A stretch of 23,685 bases of DNA from Clostridia bacterium (GTDB taxonomy: Bacteria > Bacillota_A > Clostridia > Oscillospirales > CAG-272): contig JAFQLN010000089.1 of NCBI GenBank assembly GCA_017414585.1, positions 1 through 23,685 of the forward strand. Direction: 5' to 3'. Below the pieces are notes generated by a model that saw only the letters and a list, made by a program, of their open reading frames with translations, did not search any database and had not been told where the DNA came from. The position numbers and the translations under genes were made by a program. Shown here in pieces: positions 2,989 to 23,433 of the stretch (the stretch's first letter is position 1; each line of letters begins with the position of its first letter).

Positions 2989-4134
2989 TTATGTTCGGAT
3001 GATATAATCTGCGCGGTCTCTGATGGCGAAAGCATCGCTGTATTTCTGTTCCATGGGAATCCAGCGGGAGACGAACATTCTGAGCATTTCTTCGCCGTTT
3101 CTCTCAAGAATGCGGCGTTTTTGTTCGTCGGGTGAGCATTCCGTGTAAATCCGGAAACCGTTCACAGGCGTCTTTCCGTCTTCAAAATACGGATGACAGG
3201 AATAGGAGCCTTCGATGATGGTCAGCGGTTTTTTCGGCAGTGTGACGGTAGAGGTAATCTTCATTTTTGAGCAGTCGAAAACGCCGTAAGTGAGACTTTC
3301 ATCATAGAGATGGTCGGTCACTTCATCGCGGAAGCGTTCGTAGTCCACATTTCCGCCGGGTTCGGAGAGACGTTCGGGTGTGCGCTTGTCCGGCGGCAGG
3401 AAGAAGTCGTCCATGTGGATCACGCGCGCGTCAAACAGATCGGCGAGAAGTTCGGCAAGCGTGGATTTCCCCGAGCCGCACATCCCGTCAATGAAGCATA
3501 CCAGCGGTTCGCAGCTCTTGCCCGAAGCAGACAGTGCAAAGAAAATATGGCGAAGAACCGACTGCAGCTGAAAATACTCGCGCCGGATCACACGGTATGC
3601 GGGATGACAGGCGTTTCTGTATTCCTCGCTGTGGCTGACCGGCGGCATTCCGGCGGCGATGTAGTTCTCAAGATACTCCTGCAGCGCAGCGGATGTGAAA
3701 TTGAAAATGCCTTCATCGGTCAGTCTGCGGAGTATGTCGAGCGATTCGAGAAAAATGACTTTGCGGCTGCTTGTGTCGGAAGCGGATTTTGTAAACAGCA
3801 GTGTATCAAACGCAGCGTACAGAGCATTGTCCGGAATCGGCGGAATTCCCCTCGGAAGCAGGTATGCACGTACATATCCGCCGCCGATTTCTTCATAAGG
3901 GGCATTTTGGTCACAGGTTTTCGGGAACTCCGTTACCGATTCCGTTTCTTGTATGATTCTTGCCAGCGCAGCATCACAGTCGGAGACCATGTGTCCCGGA
4001 CCGAACGCCGCCTGATACAGCAGTTTGACAGCATCCGTCGGCTGCATCATTGTGTAATACGCCGCGTGTGTGCGAAGGATCTCTTCCGCGGACGGGGCAG
4101 AGCGTGAAGCGGATATAAAAACTTGATTTTTCAT
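2989..4134 (-). CDS. Two-domain protein with C-terminal uridine-kinase-like P-loop domain
   Basis: A 381-residue protein. The C-terminal part (about 210-381) is a P-loop kinase of the uridine kinase/phosphoribulokinase type: Walker A GMCGSGKST (217-225), a strand ending HMDDFF (240-245), then a lid-like region rich in Arg (KRRILERN, about 339-346). It should phosphorylate a small molecule, but the substrate is unknown. Residues 1-200 form a separate domain that I cannot name, with conserved-looking stretches such as LLYQAAFGPGHM and GGGYVRAYL. There is no convincing ribosome site before the ATG at 4134. That ATG overlaps the TGA of a broken glycosidase gene (ATGA), so the gene was probably once translated by coupling to it. 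A downstream start at Met29 or Met30 is possible but would remove part of the N-terminal domain. Confidence 0.75.
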   Translation of the reverse strand: MKNQVFISASRSAPSAEEILRTHAAYYTMMQPTDAVKLLYQAAFGPGHMVSDCDAALARIIQETESVTEFPKTCDQNAPYEEIGGGYVRAYLLPRGIPPIPDNALYAAFDTLLFTKSASDTSSRKVIFLESLDILRRLTDEGIFNFTSAALQEYLENYIAAGMPPVSHSEEYRNACHPAYRVIRREYFQLQSVLRHIFFALSASGKSCEPLVCFIDGMCGSGKSTLAELLADLFDARVIHMDDFFLPPDKRTPERLSEPGGNVDYERFRDEVTDHLYDESLTYGVFDCSKMKITSTVTLPKKPLTIIEGSYSCHPYFEDGKTPVNGFRIYTECSPDEQKRRILERNGEEMLRMFVSRWIPMEQKYSDAFAIRDRADYIIRT

Positions 4135-4320
4135 GATTCACTGACAGCAAGAGTGTTAAAGCGTTCGTTTTTATCATTGACAGCACAGCAGAAGTGGTGA
4201 TTTTCCCTTCCGGCGAACGAACCACGGCTTATGGGCATGAACATTTTCCCACGCTTTCTCGGTTTCGATGAGCGGAGCACCGTCCCATACGTTCCAGTTG
4301 ATCAGATCGAGGCTGGCTGC
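4131..4320 (-). pseudogene. 3' remnant of a glycosidase gene, frameshifted and 5'-truncated
   Basis: Translating the minus strand from about 4318 gives ASLDLINWNVWDGAPLIE, continuing through WENVHAHKPWFVRRKGK to 4201. The sense then continues one nucleotide out of frame from 4199 as HHFCCAVNDKNERFNTLAVS up to a TGA at 4133-4131. Together this matches the end of five-bladed beta-propeller glycosidases (GH43/GH130-like), where a W...AHKPW...G..YHFYCAV pattern precedes an LATS-like strand. Only about 60 residues survive: the 5' end stops at the 3' end of the CoA ligase gene (stop 4326-4324). In the first frame a stop appears at 4176-4174. The final TGA overlaps the ATG of the kinase gene. The family assignment is from memory of the motif pattern. 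Confidence 0.6.
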
Positions 4321-4323
4321 ATT

Positions 4324-5958
4324 TTATCTTGTGGTCTGTGCTTCAACCAGCCGCTTGCCGCAGTAGATTTCGCGGAGCTTGGGCTTTTCGATTTTACCGG
4401 TGGGATTGCGCGGTACATCGGCGAAAATAATCTTGCGCGGACGCTTGTATCTCGGCAGTTCGGTGCAGAATTCGTTGATTTCTTCTTCGGTAGCGGTACA
4501 TTCGGGCTTGAGTTCAATGATCGCCGCTGCAATTTCGCCGAGTCGTTCGTCGGGCAGACCGATTACGGCAACATCCTTGATTTTGTCGTTCTTGCGGAGA
4601 AAATCTTCGATCTGAACAGGGTAGAGGTTTTCGCCGCCGGTGATGATGACGTCCTTCTTGCGGTCAACGAGGTAGATGAATCCGTCTGCGTCGCGTTTTG
4701 CCATGTCTCCGGTGTAGAGCCAGCCGTCCTTGAGGATTTCTTCGGTTGCAGCTTCGTTCTTGTAGTAGCAGGTCATGACGCCCGGACCCTTGACGATCAG
4801 TTCGCCGACATCTTCGCCTTCGACGGGAGTACCGTTGGGATGGACGATTTCAGCTTCCCAGAGATAGCCGGGAACGCCGATTGCACCGACCTTGTGGATG
4901 TTTTCCACACCGAGATGAACGCAGCCGGGGCCGATGGATTCGGAAAGCCCGTAGTTGGTATCGTATTCATGATTCGGGAACAGCTTTTTCCAGCGCTTGA
5001 TGAGGGACGGCGGAACGGGCTGTGCACCGATGTGCATGAGTCTCCACTGGGAGAGACGGTAGTCGTCGGGATTGATATCGCCGCGGTCGATGGCGTCGAG
5101 AATATCCTGCGCCCACGGAACGAGAAGCCATACGATGGTTGCGCGTTCATCGGAAACGGCACGGAGAATCCATTCGGGGGATACGCCCTTCAGGATAACC
5201 GCACGGCTGCCGGAGAGAAGCGAGCCGAACCAGTGCATCTTCGCACCGGTGTGGTAAAGCGGGGGAATGCAGAGGAAAACGTCGTCGCGGGTCTGGCTGT
5301 GATGATGCTGTTCCACACGGCAGGCTGTGATGAGCGAAAGATGCTTATGCAGAATTGCTTTCGGGAAACCGGTCGTGCCGGAGGAGAAGTAGATTGCCGC
5401 ATCGTCATCTTCATCGTACTCGACAGCAGGCGCGATGGAGGAGCAGTATGTGACCATTCTGTCATAACTGTCCGCGTAATCGGGCGCATCCTTGCCGACG
5501 AAGAAGAAATCCCTGATCATCGGAAGATCATCGACAACAGCGTTCACACGTTCGGTGAATTCGGGACCGAAGATCAGAACGGAAGCATCCGCGAGATCTG
5601 CGCAGTACTTGATTTCATCGGAAGAATAACGGTAGTTCATCGGAACGGCAAGCGCACCGGTCTTGAGAATACCGAAGTAAACCGGCAGCCATTCCAGACA
5701 GTTCATCAGAAGAATTGCAACCTTGTCGCCTTTTTTGACGCCGCGGGTGAGAAGGAGATTGGCAAAACGGTTCGCCTTGGTGTCAAATTCCTTCCATGTC
5801 ATTTCACGGCGGTATTTTTCGCCGGGCGTTGCTTCGATGAGCGCGTATTCACGCCATGTCGCGTTCGGGTCGGGCTGATTGGCGGGGTTGATTTCGACGA
5901 GAGCCACTTCGTCAGGGTAGAGCTTGGCATTTTTTTCGAGTAAATCCGTAATGACCAT
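4324..5958 (-). CDS. AMP-forming acyl- or aryl-CoA ligase under T-box control
   Basis: A 544-residue enzyme of the ANL superfamily that activates a carboxylic acid to its acyl-AMP and then the CoA thioester. Motifs: ATP loop SSGTTGFPK (192-200), NYGLSES (335-341), GWLYTGD (412-418), the hinge VDRKKDVIITGGEN (431-444) and the C-terminal catalytic lysine in NPTGKIEK (K522). Length and motifs are complete. The acid substrate is not evident; both medium/long-chain fatty acids and aryl acids are possible. The start at 5958 has an AAAGGA site about 11 nt upstream. The frame stays open to 6135, but that extension runs through the T-box and terminator and is not coding. The T-box has a tyrosine specifier, which is unusual for this family. 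A glycosidase remnant follows directly downstream. Confidence 0.9.
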   Translation of the reverse strand: MVITDLLEKNAKLYPDEVALVEINPANQPDPNATWREYALIEATPGEKYRREMTWKEFDTKANRFANLLLTRGVKKGDKVAILLMNCLEWLPVYFGILKTGALAVPMNYRYSSDEIKYCADLADASVLIFGPEFTERVNAVVDDLPMIRDFFFVGKDAPDYADSYDRMVTYCSSIAPAVEYDEDDDAAIYFSSGTTGFPKAILHKHLSLITACRVEQHHHSQTRDDVFLCIPPLYHTGAKMHWFGSLLSGSRAVILKGVSPEWILRAVSDERATIVWLLVPWAQDILDAIDRGDINPDDYRLSQWRLMHIGAQPVPPSLIKRWKKLFPNHEYDTNYGLSESIGPGCVHLGVENIHKVGAIGVPGYLWEAEIVHPNGTPVEGEDVGELIVKGPGVMTCYYKNEAATEEILKDGWLYTGDMAKRDADGFIYLVDRKKDVIITGGENLYPVQIEDFLRKNDKIKDVAVIGLPDERLGEIAAAIIELKPECTATEEEINEFCTELPRYKRPRKIIFADVPRNPTGKIEKPKLREIYCGKRLVEAQTTR

Positions 5959-5994: not shown

Positions 5995-6026
5995 AAAAAA
6001 GTCCCCGGCTGATTTCAGCAGAGGAC
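5995..6026 (-). terminator. Intrinsic terminator of the T-box leader
   Basis: GTCCTCTGCTG pairs with CAGCCGGGGAC across an AAAT loop, with one mismatch, and is followed by six T residues (6000-5995). The 5' arm GTCC is also needed for the antiterminator stem with GGAC upstream of the T-box motif, so the two folds exclude each other. Confidence 0.9.
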
Positions 6027-6290
6027 GGAAATTCCGTGGTACCACCTCAGTTTGTCCTGCCTTTGCAGACAGAACCTCAGCAGGCACAGGCTTTTCAGCG
6101 GATGCCCTGATCCGATAACGGGGATCGGTCGTCACAGCCTACTGATGCAAGTGAGCACGTTCGGTGTGCTGCTCGGGGAATGTATTCGCCTCGGATCATC
6201 CGCGCCGCTCCTTCATGACTTGCACCGACCGTCATTTCTCTGGGGAAGGAAGAAAGCGTGCTACTTGTTTCCCGTCATAACATTTTCACA
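5995..6290 (-). promoter_or_regulatory. T-box leader with UAC (tyrosine) specifier
   Basis: All main T-box parts are visible on the minus strand. The Stem I base GGGAA (6273-6269) pairs with TTCCC (6180-6176). They close the specifier loop, with AGTA on the 5' side and GAA-UAC-A on the 3' side, the codon UAC being at 6184-6182. Higher in Stem I, ATGAC/GTCAT encloses GGTCGGTGCA, the apical T-box loop. The T-box motif AGGTGGTACCACG is at 6047-6035. Its TGGT bulge would pair with a tRNA ending ACCA, which fits the A73 discriminator of bacterial tRNA-Tyr. A terminator follows at 6026-5995. Uncharged tRNA-Tyr should favour the antiterminator and switch on the downstream ligase. Confidence 0.93.
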
Positions 6291-6296
6291 ACTTGC

Positions 6297-6325
6297 ATTG
6301 TACCACAAAAACATACGCTTGTCAA
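6297..6325 (-). promoter_or_regulatory. Sigma-A promoter of the T-box/CoA ligase unit
   Basis: TTGACA (6325-6320), a 17-nt spacer and TACAAT (6302-6297) on the minus strand. Transcription would start near 6290, just ahead of T-box Stem I. This makes the ligase transcript independent of radA upstream. Confidence 0.92.
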
Positions 6326-8008: not shown

Positions 8009-9940
8009 ATGGGACTTACATTAGCTGAAAAAATCCTGAAAGCACATACTGTGGACGGTACGTTTGTCAAGGGCAGTGAAATCGGTTTGAAGATCGACCA
8101 GACGCTCACACAGGACGCAACCGGTACAATGGCATATATTGAATTTGAAGCGATGGGCATTGATCAGGTGCGCACCGAACGCAGTGTCGCCTACATCGAC
8201 CACAACACGCTTCAGTCCGGTTTTGAAAATGCCGATGACCACAGATTTATTGCATCCGTCGCAAAAAAGCACGGTATTTACTACTCCAGACCCGGCAACG
8301 GCATCTGCCATCAGGTGCATCTCGAACGCTTCGGCGTGCCCGGCAAGACCCTTATCGGTTCCGACAGCCATACTCCCACAGGCGGCGGTATCGGCATGAT
8401 TGCTATCGGTGCAGGCGGCCTGGACGTTGCTGTTGCCATGGGCGGCGGCGCTTACTATATCACCTATCCGAAAATCGTCAATGTTGAGCTGACCGGCAAG
8501 CTCTCTCCGTGGGTTGCGGCAAAGGATGTCATTCTGGAACTGCTCCGCAGAATCTCCGTCAAGGGCGGTGTGGGTAAAATTATCGAATATACCGGTGAAG
8601 GCGTGAAGACCCTCTCCGTTCCCGAACGTGCCACCATTACCAATATGGGTGCGGAACTCGGCGCAACGACCTCTATTTTCCCGTCCGACGAAAATACCCT
8701 CGCTTTCCTCAAGGCACAGGGCAGAGAAGATGTCTGGACTCCCCTCGCAGCGGACGAAGATGCAGTCTACGACGAACATATCGTGATCGACCTCAGCACG
8801 CTTGAACCGATGGCTGCCTGCCCGCATTCCCCTGACAATGTCAAATCCATCAAAGAAATCGGTCAGATGAAGATTGATCAGGTCTGCATCGGCTCCTGCA
8901 CAAACTCCTCTCTCGTCGATATGCTCAAGGTAGCCTATATCCTCGACGGCAAGACCGTGCATCCGGATGTTTCCCTCGCAGTTTCTCCCGGATCGAAGCA
9001 GGTTCTTGCTATGATGGCGGAAAACGGCGCACTGGAGAAGATCATCTCCGCCGGTGCGAGAGTGCTTGAATCCGCGTGCGGTCCGTGCATCGGCATGGGA
9101 CAGTCTCCGAACTCGAAGGGGATTTCCCTCCGTACTTTCAACAGAAACTTTGAAGGCAGAAGCGGCACGAAAGACGGTCAGGTTTACCTCGTTTCTCCCG
9201 AAGTCGCTGCAGCATCTGCGATTGCCGGATATCTCTGCGATCCCAGAGAACTCGGCAATATGCCCGTATTTGAACTGCCCGAAAAGTTCCTCATCAACGA
9301 CAATATGATCACGCTTCCCGCATCTCCCGAGGAAGCAAAGGATGTCGAAATCCTGCGCGGCCCGAATATCAAGGAATATCCGAAGACGGAACCGCTTGCC
9401 GATTCTCTCAAGGCAGAATGTTCCCTCAAAGTCGGCGACAACATCACAACCGACCATATCATGCCCGCAGGCGCGAAGATTCTCCCTCTCCGCTCCAATA
9501 TTCCCGCAATTTCCAAGCACTGCTTTGCAGTCTGCGATGAATCCTTCCCCGAACGCGCACTGGCACTCGGCAAGAGCATCATTGTCGGCGGAGCAAACTA
9601 CGGGCAGGGTTCGTCCCGTGAACACGCCGCACTCGCACCGCTCTACCTTGGCGTCAAGGCGGTCGTTGTCAAATCCTTTGCAAGAATTCACCGTCAGAAC
9701 CTTGTCAACGCAGGGATTCTCCCTCTTGAATTTGTCAATGAAGCTGACTACGATGCAATCGCGCAGGGTGATACGCTCGTGATCGACGATCTCAAGTCCG
9801 TTCTCACAACCGGTACCGTGATGATCAGAAACGAATCAAACGGCAAGATGATCGAAACCAGATGCGAACTTTCCGAACGGATGAAAGACGTCATGAAGTG
9901 CGGCGGTCTGCTGGATTACACCAAGGCGAATCTGAAATAA
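8009..9940 (+). CDS. acnA: Aconitate hydratase (short, Aquifex-type)
   Basis: A 643-residue [4Fe-4S] dehydratase that interconverts citrate and isocitrate. The three cluster cysteines are visible as C297 (GSCTN), C357 and C360 (ACGPC). The N-terminal SDSHTPTGGG stretch (118-127) and the C-terminal swivel domain, with GANYGQGSSREHAAL, are also present. At 643 residues it is shorter than classical AcnA (about 890) and fits the compact single-chain form sometimes called Aquifex-type, related to isopropylmalate/homoaconitate dehydratases. The adjacent isocitrate dehydrogenase supports a role in the oxidative branch leading to 2-oxoglutarate. It is the first gene of a three-gene operon. The symbol is by function, not by close similarity to E. 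coli AcnA. Confidence 0.93.
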   Translation: MGLTLAEKILKAHTVDGTFVKGSEIGLKIDQTLTQDATGTMAYIEFEAMGIDQVRTERSVAYIDHNTLQSGFENADDHRFIASVAKKHGIYYSRPGNGICHQVHLERFGVPGKTLIGSDSHTPTGGGIGMIAIGAGGLDVAVAMGGGAYYITYPKIVNVELTGKLSPWVAAKDVILELLRRISVKGGVGKIIEYTGEGVKTLSVPERATITNMGAELGATTSIFPSDENTLAFLKAQGREDVWTPLAADEDAVYDEHIVIDLSTLEPMAACPHSPDNVKSIKEIGQMKIDQVCIGSCTNSSLVDMLKVAYILDGKTVHPDVSLAVSPGSKQVLAMMAENGALEKIISAGARVLESACGPCIGMGQSPNSKGISLRTFNRNFEGRSGTKDGQVYLVSPEVAAASAIAGYLCDPRELGNMPVFELPEKFLINDNMITLPASPEEAKDVEILRGPNIKEYPKTEPLADSLKAECSLKVGDNITTDHIMPAGAKILPLRSNIPAISKHCFAVCDESFPERALALGKSIIVGGANYGQGSSREHAALAPLYLGVKAVVVKSFARIHRQNLVNAGILPLEFVNEADYDAIAQGDTLVIDDLKSVLTTGTVMIRNESNGKMIETRCELSERMKDVMKCGGLLDYTKANLK

Positions 9941-20773: not shown

Positions 20774-22351
20774 TCAGATTTCCAGGACGTTGGCGGTGGC
20801 GAGAAGAATTTCGGTCACGTCGTCCGCGAGTACACCCGTGGTCAGATATTCACCGTCTCCGGTGGTCAGAACAATCAGACCTGCTCCGGTGAGGACATTT
20901 TTCTGCTCGTCGGAGAGATGCGCCGCGTAGTAGGGCGTGCGTCCCTCTTCAAACAGAGCGCGTTCAAGGGCGCGTCCGTAAGATTCATTGTCAACGGAAA
21001 CGATCAGCGGCTTCTGACCGAGATGCTTTGCACGTTCGGCAGGGGTGATCTGCGCATCGGAAGCGGCAAGACTGCGGTCTTCGGCAAGAGCTTCCGTGAT
21101 GATGCCGCCGCCGGAGATTTCGTAATTGTCAACAAGCACAAAGCGTCCGGTTGCGGGGAGGGCATTGCTGATGTCAAAAGCGATGTCGCGGTCACAGACG
21201 AGTGTGCAGTCGGCGATGTCATTTTTGTTCGCCTGCATGACGCCGGTATTCTTGTCGAGAGACGATGCGTCAAGAACGCTGTGGATTTCCGCGATCCGGC
21301 AGGTGGTCTTCGCCGTGCAGGATTTGATAATGTATTCCTTGCCGACAGTCAGCGGGTTCTTGCCGAGCCAGAACATACTTGCGCGGAAGCGTCTGCCGAC
21401 CTTCGGGGCTTCTTCGCCGGTTTTGCAGGCGATTTCACCGCGGTGAACGTAGATCTGCGTTGTGGTTGTGAAACCGCAGGATTTTCCCTTGGTGAAGACT
21501 TTCGGAGCGCGTGCGGAATCGTCATCCATGAACCATTCTTCGAGATTCTTGACCGTAGTGGTTTTGCCGGACGGATAGAAGATGACTTCATCGCCCGCAC
21601 GCAGAGAACCGGATTCGCAAAGCCCAGCGATAATCCGTCGGTCATCGCCGCCTTCGGTGAACTTGTAAACGTCTTCTACGGGGATTCGCAGAGGAAGATT
21701 GTCTTCCGCTTCGCCGCCGTTGAAAATATCGAGCTGTTCAAGGACGTTGACGCCGGTATACCACGGGGTATTTTCGGAATGGTTGGCGATGTTGTCGCCC
21801 TGCATTGCCGAAACGGGGATGAACGCCGCCGGGTTGATGCCGATGGAGTGGAGGAATTCGGTGTATTCGGCGCAGATTCTGTCATAAATTTCGGGATCGT
21901 AGCCGACAAGGTCGATCTTGTTGACGAGAACCGCGATCTGATTGATGCCGAGCATTTCCAGCATATATCCGTGTCTGCGCGAGTTTTCGCAGATCCCTTC
22001 CGCCGCGTCGATGACGAGAAGGGCAGCTTCCGCACGGGATGCACCGGTGATCATATTCTTGAGGAATTCGATGTGACCGGGCGCGTCGATGATGATGTAT
22101 TTCCGCTTTTCGGTTTCAAAGAAACAGCGGGCAGTGTCGATGGTGATACCCTGTGCACGTTCGTCCTTGAGCGCGTCGAGAAGGAAAGCATATTCAAACG
22201 GCTTGCTTGTCTTTCTGCTAAGCTCGCGGATTGCTTCGATTTTACCGTCCGGAAGGGTGTGCGTGTCAGCGAGGAGACGTCCAATGACGGTACTTTTACC
22301 GTGGTCAACATGACCCGCAACGACAATATTGATATGTTGTTTATCCTGCAT
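20774..22351 (-). CDS. cysN: Sulfate adenylyltransferase GTPase subunit CysN with a degenerate APS-kinase-like tail
   Basis: A 525-residue GTPase subunit that, with CysD, makes APS from sulfate and ATP. Motifs: G1 GHVDHGKS (13-20), the G2 region DERAQGITID (63-72), DAPGH (89-93) and NKID (144-147), followed by EF-Tu-like beta barrels to about 430. Plain CysN is about 475 residues. The extra C-terminal stretch (435-525) lines up in character with the start of an APS kinase: a LGQKP lead-in, a helix ALERALFEEGR, and GLIVLTT. Where the kinase needs a GxxGxGKS P-loop, it has VDNESYGRA. So the kinase activity should be absent from this protein. The ATG at 22351 follows GAGAGAG. The gap to cysD is 194 bp. 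Confidence 0.93.
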   Translation of the reverse strand: MQDKQHINIVVAGHVDHGKSTVIGRLLADTHTLPDGKIEAIRELSRKTSKPFEYAFLLDALKDERAQGITIDTARCFFETEKRKYIIIDAPGHIEFLKNMITGASRAEAALLVIDAAEGICENSRRHGYMLEMLGINQIAVLVNKIDLVGYDPEIYDRICAEYTEFLHSIGINPAAFIPVSAMQGDNIANHSENTPWYTGVNVLEQLDIFNGGEAEDNLPLRIPVEDVYKFTEGGDDRRIIAGLCESGSLRAGDEVIFYPSGKTTTVKNLEEWFMDDDSARAPKVFTKGKSCGFTTTTQIYVHRGEIACKTGEEAPKVGRRFRASMFWLGKNPLTVGKEYIIKSCTAKTTCRIAEIHSVLDASSLDKNTGVMQANKNDIADCTLVCDRDIAFDISNALPATGRFVLVDNYEISGGGIITEALAEDRSLAASDAQITPAERAKHLGQKPLIVSVDNESYGRALERALFEEGRTPYYAAHLSDEQKNVLTGAGLIVLTTGDGEYLTTGVLADDVTEILLATANVLEI

Positions 22352-22545
22352 GATACTCTCTCTTTATTCTTCGGTTGATAATTGTCTGTTTGCTCCGTGA
22401 CAATCCCTGATCATGGATCATCCCCTCCGGCACCCAATCAGCGCAGCGGAAGGTCGTGGGATTTTTTATATATTTCAGCTGCAAATACGCCGGTTTGCCA
22501 ACGGGGGCATCCCCGTCCGGTCTTCCGGTGGGGGCATCTCCGGCA
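22352..22545 (-). other. Repeat-bearing cysD-cysN spacer, open in one minus-strand frame
   Basis: Where cysD and cysN are usually adjacent there are 194 bp here. In one minus-strand frame, different from cysD and cysN, the whole spacer lacks stops. Its translation begins GDAPTGRPDGDAPVGKPAYL and continues through KYIKNPTTFRCADW to a stop just inside cysN. It has no plausible start signal of its own. The first part is a two-unit repeat (see 22503-22542). An alternative 23-residue open frame (22475-22546) starts at an ATG overlapping the cysD stop as TGATG. I cannot assign a function; a small inserted repeat element or an RNA-processing site fits as well as a gene. Confidence 0.4.
22503..22542. 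repeat. Tandem 27-nt-spaced repeat with hairpins in the cysD-cysN spacer
   Basis: GGGGGCATCYCCG occurs at 22503-22515 and 22530-22542 (12 of 13 identical), 27 nt apart, so the spacing is in frame. The first copy forms a perfect hairpin ACGGGG-GCAT-CCCCGT (22501-22516). Between the copies CCGG-TCTT-CCGG (22517-22528) forms another small hairpin. Confidence 0.7.
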
Positions 22546-23433
22546 TCACATATATCCGCCGCGTCTCAGTTCTTCGAGTCCGCCGCCGTCTTCCTTGTCC
22601 TGTTCACGGCCGCTTCTTTCTGCGATCCGGGCGAATTTGCCGGACTTCAGTTCTTCAATGATGTCATCCAGATTCTTTGCTGTAGATTCAACCGGCTTGG
22701 TGCACGGCCAGCAGCCGAGCGAACGGTAACGCTTTCCGTCTCCCTGATCGAAATAGAGTGATACAACCGGCACACCTTCGCGGCGGATGTATTCCCAGAT
22801 ATCGGTCTCGGTCCAGTCAAGAAGCGGATGGATACGGACATGGGTTCCGGGAGCGAAGTCAGTCTTGTACTGACCCCAGAATTCCGGCGGCTGATCGTCT
22901 GCGTCCCAGTCGTTGTGCTTGTCTCTCGGGCTGAAGTAGCGTTCCTTCGAGCGGCTTCCTTCTTCGTCTGCACGTACACCGACGATAACACCGGTGAACG
23001 GTTCACAGTTTTCGTCCCGTTCGTATTTGCCGGTTGTGTGGTTGAGGCGGTAACGCGGCCAGTCACCGGCGAGTGTGTGCGTGAGTGCTTCCGTCTTCAG
23101 ATGGCGGCAACATTCGATGCGCGTTGCATTGCCGTCCGGGAAGGTTGCCTTGGCATCCAGAGCTTCGCGGTTTTCGCCGTAGATCATGTCCAGATTCCAT
23201 TCCATAGCGAGACGGTCGCGGTATTCGATCATTTCGGGAATCTTGTAGTGCGTGTCAACATGGACAAGCGGGAAGGGAACATGACCGTAGAAGGCTTTTC
23301 TGGCGAGGCAGAGCAGAACGGTGCTGTCCTTGCCGATCGACCAGAGCATACATAAATTTTTAAATGCTGAGTACGATTCACGGAGAATGTGAATGCTTCT
23401 CGACTCAAGCATATCAAGATGACTGTATGACAT
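22546..23433 (-). CDS. cysD: Sulfate adenylyltransferase small subunit CysD
   Basis: A 295-residue PP-loop ATPase that forms the catalytic subunit of ATP sulfurylase, making APS from sulfate and ATP. The PP-loop is SIGKDST (32-38); other family stretches are [46 protein letters not shown] and [15 protein letters not shown]. Length is close to the usual 300, and the end (LRRGGYM) is normal, so the gene is intact. The ATG at 23433 follows AAAGGAC by about 10 nt. It lies 48 bp after cysQ and upstream of cysN, so it belongs to one minus-strand operon whose promoter lies outside the window. Confidence 0.97.

Follow-up and report, generated by a model that had tools for sequence, protein, structure and literature searches.

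T-box leaders switch on the genes behind them when their tRNA is uncharged, i.e., under starvation for the corresponding amino acid. In the clostridial DNA analyzed here, a stretch of 23,685 nucleotides referred to as the window, a T-box reading tyrosine stands in front of the gene of an AMP-forming acyl/aryl-CoA ligase, which raises the question what such an enzyme has to do with the supply of tyrosine. A preliminary description of the locus had suggested that the ligase activates 4-hydroxyphenylacetate or a similar aryl acid and that the CoA ester is reductively carboxylated to the arylpyruvate and transaminated to tyrosine, with an indolepyruvate:ferredoxin oxidoreductase (IOR) as the partner to look for. 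Here, this proposal is examined from the leader outwards, through the ligase and its relatives to the gene clusters and genomes in which these are found.

The leader could be confirmed as a complete transcriptional T-box with the tyrosine specifier GAA-UAC-A (Table 1). Both of these claims of the preliminary description were borne out, as the covariance match obtained in e-value mode spans the model from end to end and as the specifier, in a loop closed by GGGAA/TTCCC, is the same in the Rfam specifier column and in the reading of a stem-guided script. The score of 78 bits lies under the gathering score of RF00230, which is 93, and a scan of the whole window at the gathering threshold was therefore empty. 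Antiterminator and terminator both need the same UCCUC and are, according to folding, mutually exclusive; the terminator is seen by folding and is absent from the output of a scan for terminator-like sites. With the full-model match, a specifier loop that fits one tRNA, a UGGN bulge and mutually exclusive antiterminator and terminator, the leader shows the sequence and structural features expected of a member of the family. Folded freely, the leader as a whole does only modestly better than shuffled sequences (z -1.72), and one promoter-like site was found where 1.6 are expected in shuffles, so that the weight of the promoter lies in its place and not in its rarity. The base pairing with the tRNA discriminator had also been put forward in favor of tRNA-Tyr. 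It is compatible with this tRNA; however, the discriminator A is common to tRNA-Tyr and tRNA-Phe, and the U of the UGGU bulge, which pairs with it, cannot separate the two, leaving the pairing uninformative in this respect.

Table 1. Features of the T-box leader, the ligase gene and the following open reading frame in the window.
Feature	Position	Strand	Basis and remarks
T-box leader (RF00230), complete model	6018-6287	-	Rfam covariance match, 78 bits, E 2.8e-17, model positions 1-219 of 219
Sigma-A-type promoter TTGACA-17-TACAAT	6297-6325	-	11 of 12 consensus matches
Specifier codon UAC (Tyr)	6182-6184	-	GAA (6187-6185) before, A (6181) after; Rfam specifier column and stem-guided script
GGGAA, 5' strand of the helix closing the specifier loop	6269-6273	-	Pairs with UUCCC (6180-6176)
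Conserved AGAGA of distal Stem I	6237-6241	-	Sequence and Rfam alignment
T-box/antiterminator with bulge UGGU (6044-6041) for the tRNA 3' end	6021-6048	-	Folded as 6052-6019, -8.3 kcal/mol
Intrinsic terminator, stem 6026-6001, U-run 6000-5995 (six U)	5995-6026	-	Folded as 6027-5993, -15.9 kcal/mol
AMP-forming acyl/aryl-CoA ligase, 544 aa, proposed arylacetate (4-hydroxyphenylacetate) ligase	4324-5958	-	PF00501 and PF13193
381-aa ORF, weak kinase similarity	2989-4134	-	189 bp downstream of the ligase; possibly co-transcribed, probably unrelated

Both domains of the ligase exceed their curated cut-offs (PF00501 with 235.7 bits versus 29.9, PF13193 with 49 bits versus 24.5), most of 120 listed homologues share the length of 544 aa, and the first methionine is invariant in 28 aligned sequences. 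Family models leave the substrate unplaced. The best NCBIfam model is a fatty-acyl-CoA ligase, and none of the best 25 of 108 matches reaches its model's own cut-off; the PaaK model TIGR02155 (cut-off 646.3 bits) is absent from these 25, the lowest of which scores 202.6 bits, so that any match of the ligase to PaaK would lie far under the cut-off. The closest solved relatives by sequence are FadD13 and FadD5, which the family profile matches with 273 and 260 bits, feruloyl-CoA synthetase also being among the nearest, and models and structures thus lean towards a fatty-acyl substrate. On these grounds the enzyme could activate a different acid, such as a fatty acid, a phenylpropanoid or cinnamate, with a loose link between the T-box and tyrosine, which we regard as unlikely given that related ligases are repeatedly linked to iorA-iorB, paaK and ACT genes and that the specifiers read are exclusively aromatic (see below). 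The preliminary description had named the ligase as the only gene downstream. It does follow the T-box directly; however, the 381-aa ORF lies close behind it on the same strand, the scan listed no terminator-like site between the two, and it may be part of the same transcript, which makes a sole downstream gene uncertain. A counterpart of this ORF was not seen by eye after the ligase in the related locus L001. Two further observations concern other parts of the window: the strand opposite the ligase has an open frame of 570 aa (4231-5943, plus strand) that is probably a shadow of codon usage, and ORFs at the window end (20774-23433, minus strand) look, from their translations, like the sulfate adenylyltransferase subunits CysD and CysN.

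For comparison, 80 ligase loci representing a part of the family were collected and searched for T-boxes upstream, and genome-wide searches covered the 46 genomes that were reached via 46 of these loci. The relatives come mostly from metagenome-assembled genomes titled Clostridia or its families, many of them from rumen or gut, and a few are titled Chloroflexi, Spirochaetia, Acholeplasmatales or Victivallales. In 29 of the 80 loci the 700 bp in front of the ligase hold a T-box core, and after removal of L014 there remain 28 T-boxes directly in front of the ligase, 26 of which reach the RF00230 gathering score (94-137 bits), L003 and L016 lying slightly under it with 91.5 and 92.1 bits. In five additional loci the T-box is located further upstream, giving 33 of 80 altogether: in L018, L028, L072 and L079 the order is T-box, symporter-like gene, ligase, and in L006 a tyrosine-reading T-box (669-995, 86.8 bits) is followed by an 880-aa lipoprotein-like ORF, an odd middle gene, and then by the ligase. 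At the other 47 loci no T-box was found by the core-motif scan, L014 being the only one of them to which Rfam was applied as well. The core of L014 (at -72, 8474-8546) was left uncounted, since Stem I is absent and Rfam gives no match; a promoter-like sequence, the core and a terminator-like hairpin survive in front of this ligase, the appearance of a decayed T-box. Core-like matches far upstream in L063 and L077, and those in L004, L012, L044, L053 and L067 (-1631), were judged to be chance by eye and script, as they lack a Stem I match or look coding.

With 373 T-boxes across the 46 genomes (approximately 107 Mb), chance would place about 0.07 of them no more than 500 bases from any of 80 genes, against the 28 seen; as the loci are related, these 28 do not represent as many independent events. 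Presence and absence of the T-box require 16 changes on a ligase tree obtained by a quick search with 23 of 78 inner branches unresolved, T-box members occur in both halves of this tree, and the window ligase groups with L001 and L021 (SH-aLRT 99), both of which carry a tyrosine T-box. The objection, raised in the preliminary description itself, that the arrangement might be a recent rearrangement of a tyrS leader was tested in this way, and the conservation among related loci argues that the pairing of T-box and ligase is no local rearrangement. T-boxes in front of tyrS do exist in related genomes, four being found by script in 30 tyrS loci (L131, L142, L143, L151) and four by coordinates (G014, G027, G031, G041); they are separate elements, and given this and the spread of the T-box-ligase pair over both halves of the tree, a displaced tyrS T-box that is functionally unlinked to the ligase is an extremely improbable explanation. 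As a control for specifier reading, the tyrS T-boxes of L131, L142, L143 and L151 were read by eye and gave UAC, L131 being the least sure.

All of the T-boxes directly in front of the ligase have an aromatic specifier, UAC for tyrosine in 24 of 28 and UUC for phenylalanine in four (L042, L049, L054, L065). The stem-guided script supplied 22 of these calls (18 UAC, 4 UUC), and six UAC were assigned by eye. In four of the latter (L009, L021, L025, L030) the script returned ACA, the pair next to the loop being A.G there and not A-U, and UAC was taken from the register of their relatives; in the remaining two, L037 with CAA instead of GAA and L008 with a leader cut too short, the script failed. 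For the T-boxes further upstream, the script read UAC in L028 and L072 and ACA in L018, and made no usable call in L079 and L006, both of which show UAC in the Rfam specifier column. Two back-to-back pairs of T-boxes on opposite strands within approximately 650 bases, all over the gathering score, were also observed in the genomes searched (G028:C64:9556-10184 and G034:C26:19522-20169).

The surroundings of the related ligases provide the partner that had been proposed. In 29 of 80 loci the ligase is followed on its own strand by iorA, a gene for IOR; of the 64 loci with 4.5 kb or more of sequence counted from the start of the ligase, this holds for 26. A symporter-like gene adjoins the ligase in 36 of 80, and in 18 of 80 paaK is nearby in the same orientation. 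These identities rest on tblastn similarity across loci, with one example of each checked by family models: IorA and IorB of L051 score 721 bits to TIGR03336 (cut-off 650.9) and 279 bits to NF005325 (cut-off 230), PaaK of L051 scores 515 bits to TIGR02155, under that model's 646.3, and the sodium-symporter-like protein of L042 stays below the cut-offs of its best NCBIfam models. In its fullest form the order is T-box, ligase, symporter-like gene, iorA, iorB, paaK and ACT gene (e.g., L042, L049, L054), and the cluster of L059 includes an additional gene resembling PLP-dependent aminotransferases. A tandem second ligase in the 1.6-kb gaps was ruled out, the gap gene being sodium-symporter-like. 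The same-strand gene preceding the T-box-ligase of L066 (upstream of 2853) resembles, by eye, transporters of the NSS family, a family that PMC2494555 reports under Leu, Phe and Trp T-boxes. T-box and downstream iorA occur together in 13 loci, and in 16 loci with downstream iorA no T-box was detected, so that other control may exist there. Several genomes with a lone ligase carry iorA-iorB at another place, in most cases with no T-box core right in front of them. Ruminococcus flavefaciens YAD2003 (L061) likewise possesses the ligase, with no T-box detected before it, together with IOR. Neither in the 4.3 kb that follow the ligase in the window nor in the 9.6 kb of L001 were ior, paaK or symporter-like genes found beside the ligase, the downstream flank of L021 is hidden as the contig stops within the ligase, and IOR is found over cut-off in the two genomes with the nearest ligases, G001 (L001) and G019 (L021). 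The pathway suggested in the preliminary description is supported by this gene context, with an arylacetate as the probable substrate and carboxylation as the probable direction.

A closer view on the substrate is offered by the T-boxes of paaK. Such elements precede paaK over the gathering score in four genomes (G004, G006, G017, G044) and read phenylalanine; none was found directly in front of paaK in the paaK stretches fetched from other genomes. The script read UUC in L111 (G044), L112 (G004) and L113 (G017) and UCU in L107 (G006), which is the least certain; the Rfam register is off by one in L107, L111 and L113, as it is in L018, and L112 is UUC by both methods. Three of these genomes (G006, G017, G044) have, besides the phenylalanine-read T-box of paaK, a separate tyrosine-read T-box in front of the ligase or its operon, a split that is clean on both sides in G044 only, since the ligase-side reading in G017 (L018) and the paaK-side reading in G006 depend on the register. 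T-box specifiers agreed with gene function wherever the function was verified, as stated in PMC2494555. Carried over to the present case, this agreement would place PaaK in a phenylalanine branch and the ligase in a tyrosine branch, and the split in specifiers points to phenylacetate as the putative substrate of PaaK and 4-hydroxyphenylacetate as that of the ligase. The four phenylalanine T-boxes in front of the ligase head clusters that hold both ligases, so they do not conflict with the split, yet they allow a ligase of broad range that may take both acids. Such an enzyme, a general arylacetate-CoA ligase for phenylacetate, 4-hydroxyphenylacetate and perhaps indoleacetate whose specifier marks the amino acid that runs short first in a lineage, is a serious candidate to which we give somewhat less than an even chance; it would also account for G009 and G013, in which PaaK is not found at E 1e-60 and IOR and a tyrosine T-box before the ligase are present. 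The predominance of tyrosine among the direct T-boxes and the separate phenylalanine and tyrosine T-boxes of paaK and ligase in the three genomes, one of them clean, weigh on the other side.

Activation of an acid by an AMP-forming enzyme costs ATP, and this cost together with induction by starvation fits an anabolic direction of the route. Among the 46 genomes, prephenate dehydrogenase, prephenate dehydratase, chorismate synthase and DHQ synthase were all not found in G009, G020 and G023, and tyrS and the T-box-ligase are present in all three. This coincidence is weak, since the T-box-ligase is found in 30 of the 46 anyway and the chance of meeting it in three shikimate-poor genomes is 0.27; the three are, moreover, draft metagenome-assembled genomes. 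Prephenate dehydrogenase is kept in 42 of 46 genomes, so that the route would be at most a supplement in most of them. Matches to the EPSP-synthase family, counted together with MurA, which belongs to it, occur in 46 of 46 genomes. For the reverse direction it may be argued that IOR is best known for the oxidative fermentation of amino acids and that it occurs over cut-off in 41 of 46 genomes, near a ligase or not; the operon would then be catabolic, with IOR oxidizing arylpyruvates from amino acid fermentation and ligase and PaaK handling the CoA esters. We consider this improbable, because T-boxes induce under shortage, signaled by uncharged tRNA, because the ligase is AMP-forming and not an ADP-forming, energy-conserving synthetase, and because some hosts seem to be devoid of the end steps of the shikimate route. 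IOR can run as a reductive carboxylase. According to PMC4162585, which discusses the part of IOR, Porat et al. showed that Methanococcus maripaludis has a further route to its aromatic amino acids, with aryl acids as substrates, and PMC7356843 cites Allison (1965) for the formation of phenylalanine from phenylacetate in rumen bacteria.

Taken together, the locus is probably part of a starvation-induced system in which arylacetates, activated with CoA and reductively carboxylated, are rebuilt into tyrosine and phenylalanine, as judged from sequence and gene order. The T-box, its tyrosine specifier, its conservation and the gene order among relatives are observed. In the cell, uncharged tRNA-Tyr would pair with the UAC specifier and the UGGU bulge and stabilize the antiterminator, allowing RNA polymerase to read into the ligase gene. 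An arylacetate supplied by the gut, with 4-hydroxyphenylacetate as the likeliest candidate, would then be converted by the ligase to its CoA thioester, and an IOR, presumably encoded in the genome of the window as well, would reductively carboxylate the thioester to 4-hydroxyphenylpyruvate, which an aminotransferase could turn into tyrosine. T-boxes of this kind are found in relatives before the sodium-symporter-like gene, which probably serves uptake, and also before iorA-iorB and PaaK, probably the phenylacetate branch, in clusters that may be co-transcribed. It counts against this explanation that the ligase step could already be covered by PaaK, which is encoded in the same operons. A wider formulation, which to us has nearly an even chance of being right, is a T-box regulon of gut and rumen Clostridia, split into tyrosine and phenylalanine, that would salvage arylacetates by reductive carboxylation (4-hydroxyphenylacetate via the FadD-like ligase and phenylacetate via PaaK) and replace the shikimate route for phenylalanine and tyrosine in some lineages, the ligase representing a new family of 4-hydroxyphenylacetate-CoA ligases recognized through its riboswitch. 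If this is true, the RNA names the amino acid and hence the substrate for a ligase family that is labelled "fatty-acid" and has at least thousands of relatives in databases. In addition, cross-feeding among gut microbes, with some releasing arylacetates and others turning these into amino acids, would be provided with genes and with a regulatory readout.

In the open literature searched, no T-box tied to indolepyruvate oxidoreductase or to phenylacetate metabolism was found, a prior mention in supplements of surveys or in T-box databases being possible; the main text of PMC2494555 does not contain "CoA", and that of PMC3766115, whose T-box regulons are given in additional files, contains none of "tyrosine", "CoA" and "phenylacetate". 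The RNA itself appears to be an ordinary T-box and its target pathway to be new. With known tyrosine T-boxes such as that of Bacillus subtilis tyrS, the leader shares the promoter, a Stem I with an AGUA/GAA specifier loop, the UAC specifier, the AGAGA motif, the UGGU bulge and the antiterminator/terminator pair; it differs in its score under the gathering threshold and in preceding a CoA ligase instead of tyrS, tyrosine biosynthesis or transporter genes. The ligase resembles the fatty acyl-CoA synthetases FadD13 and FadD5 in sequence, whereas the ligase neighbors viewed showed no noticeable connection to lipid genes. With PaaK (TIGR02155), its neighbor in the loci counted above, it would share the same reaction on a sister substrate, although it stems from a different AMP-forming branch and the T-box of PaaK itself reads phenylalanine. 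Finally, the route proposed here would be like the one from aryl acids in Methanococcus maripaludis and rumen bacteria, as described in PMC4162585 and PMC7356843, leading from the aryl acid via its CoA ester and carboxylation by IOR to the arylpyruvate and the amino acid; in contrast to that route, the one proposed here has mostly clostridial genes, a FadD-like ligase and T-boxes in front of the genes.
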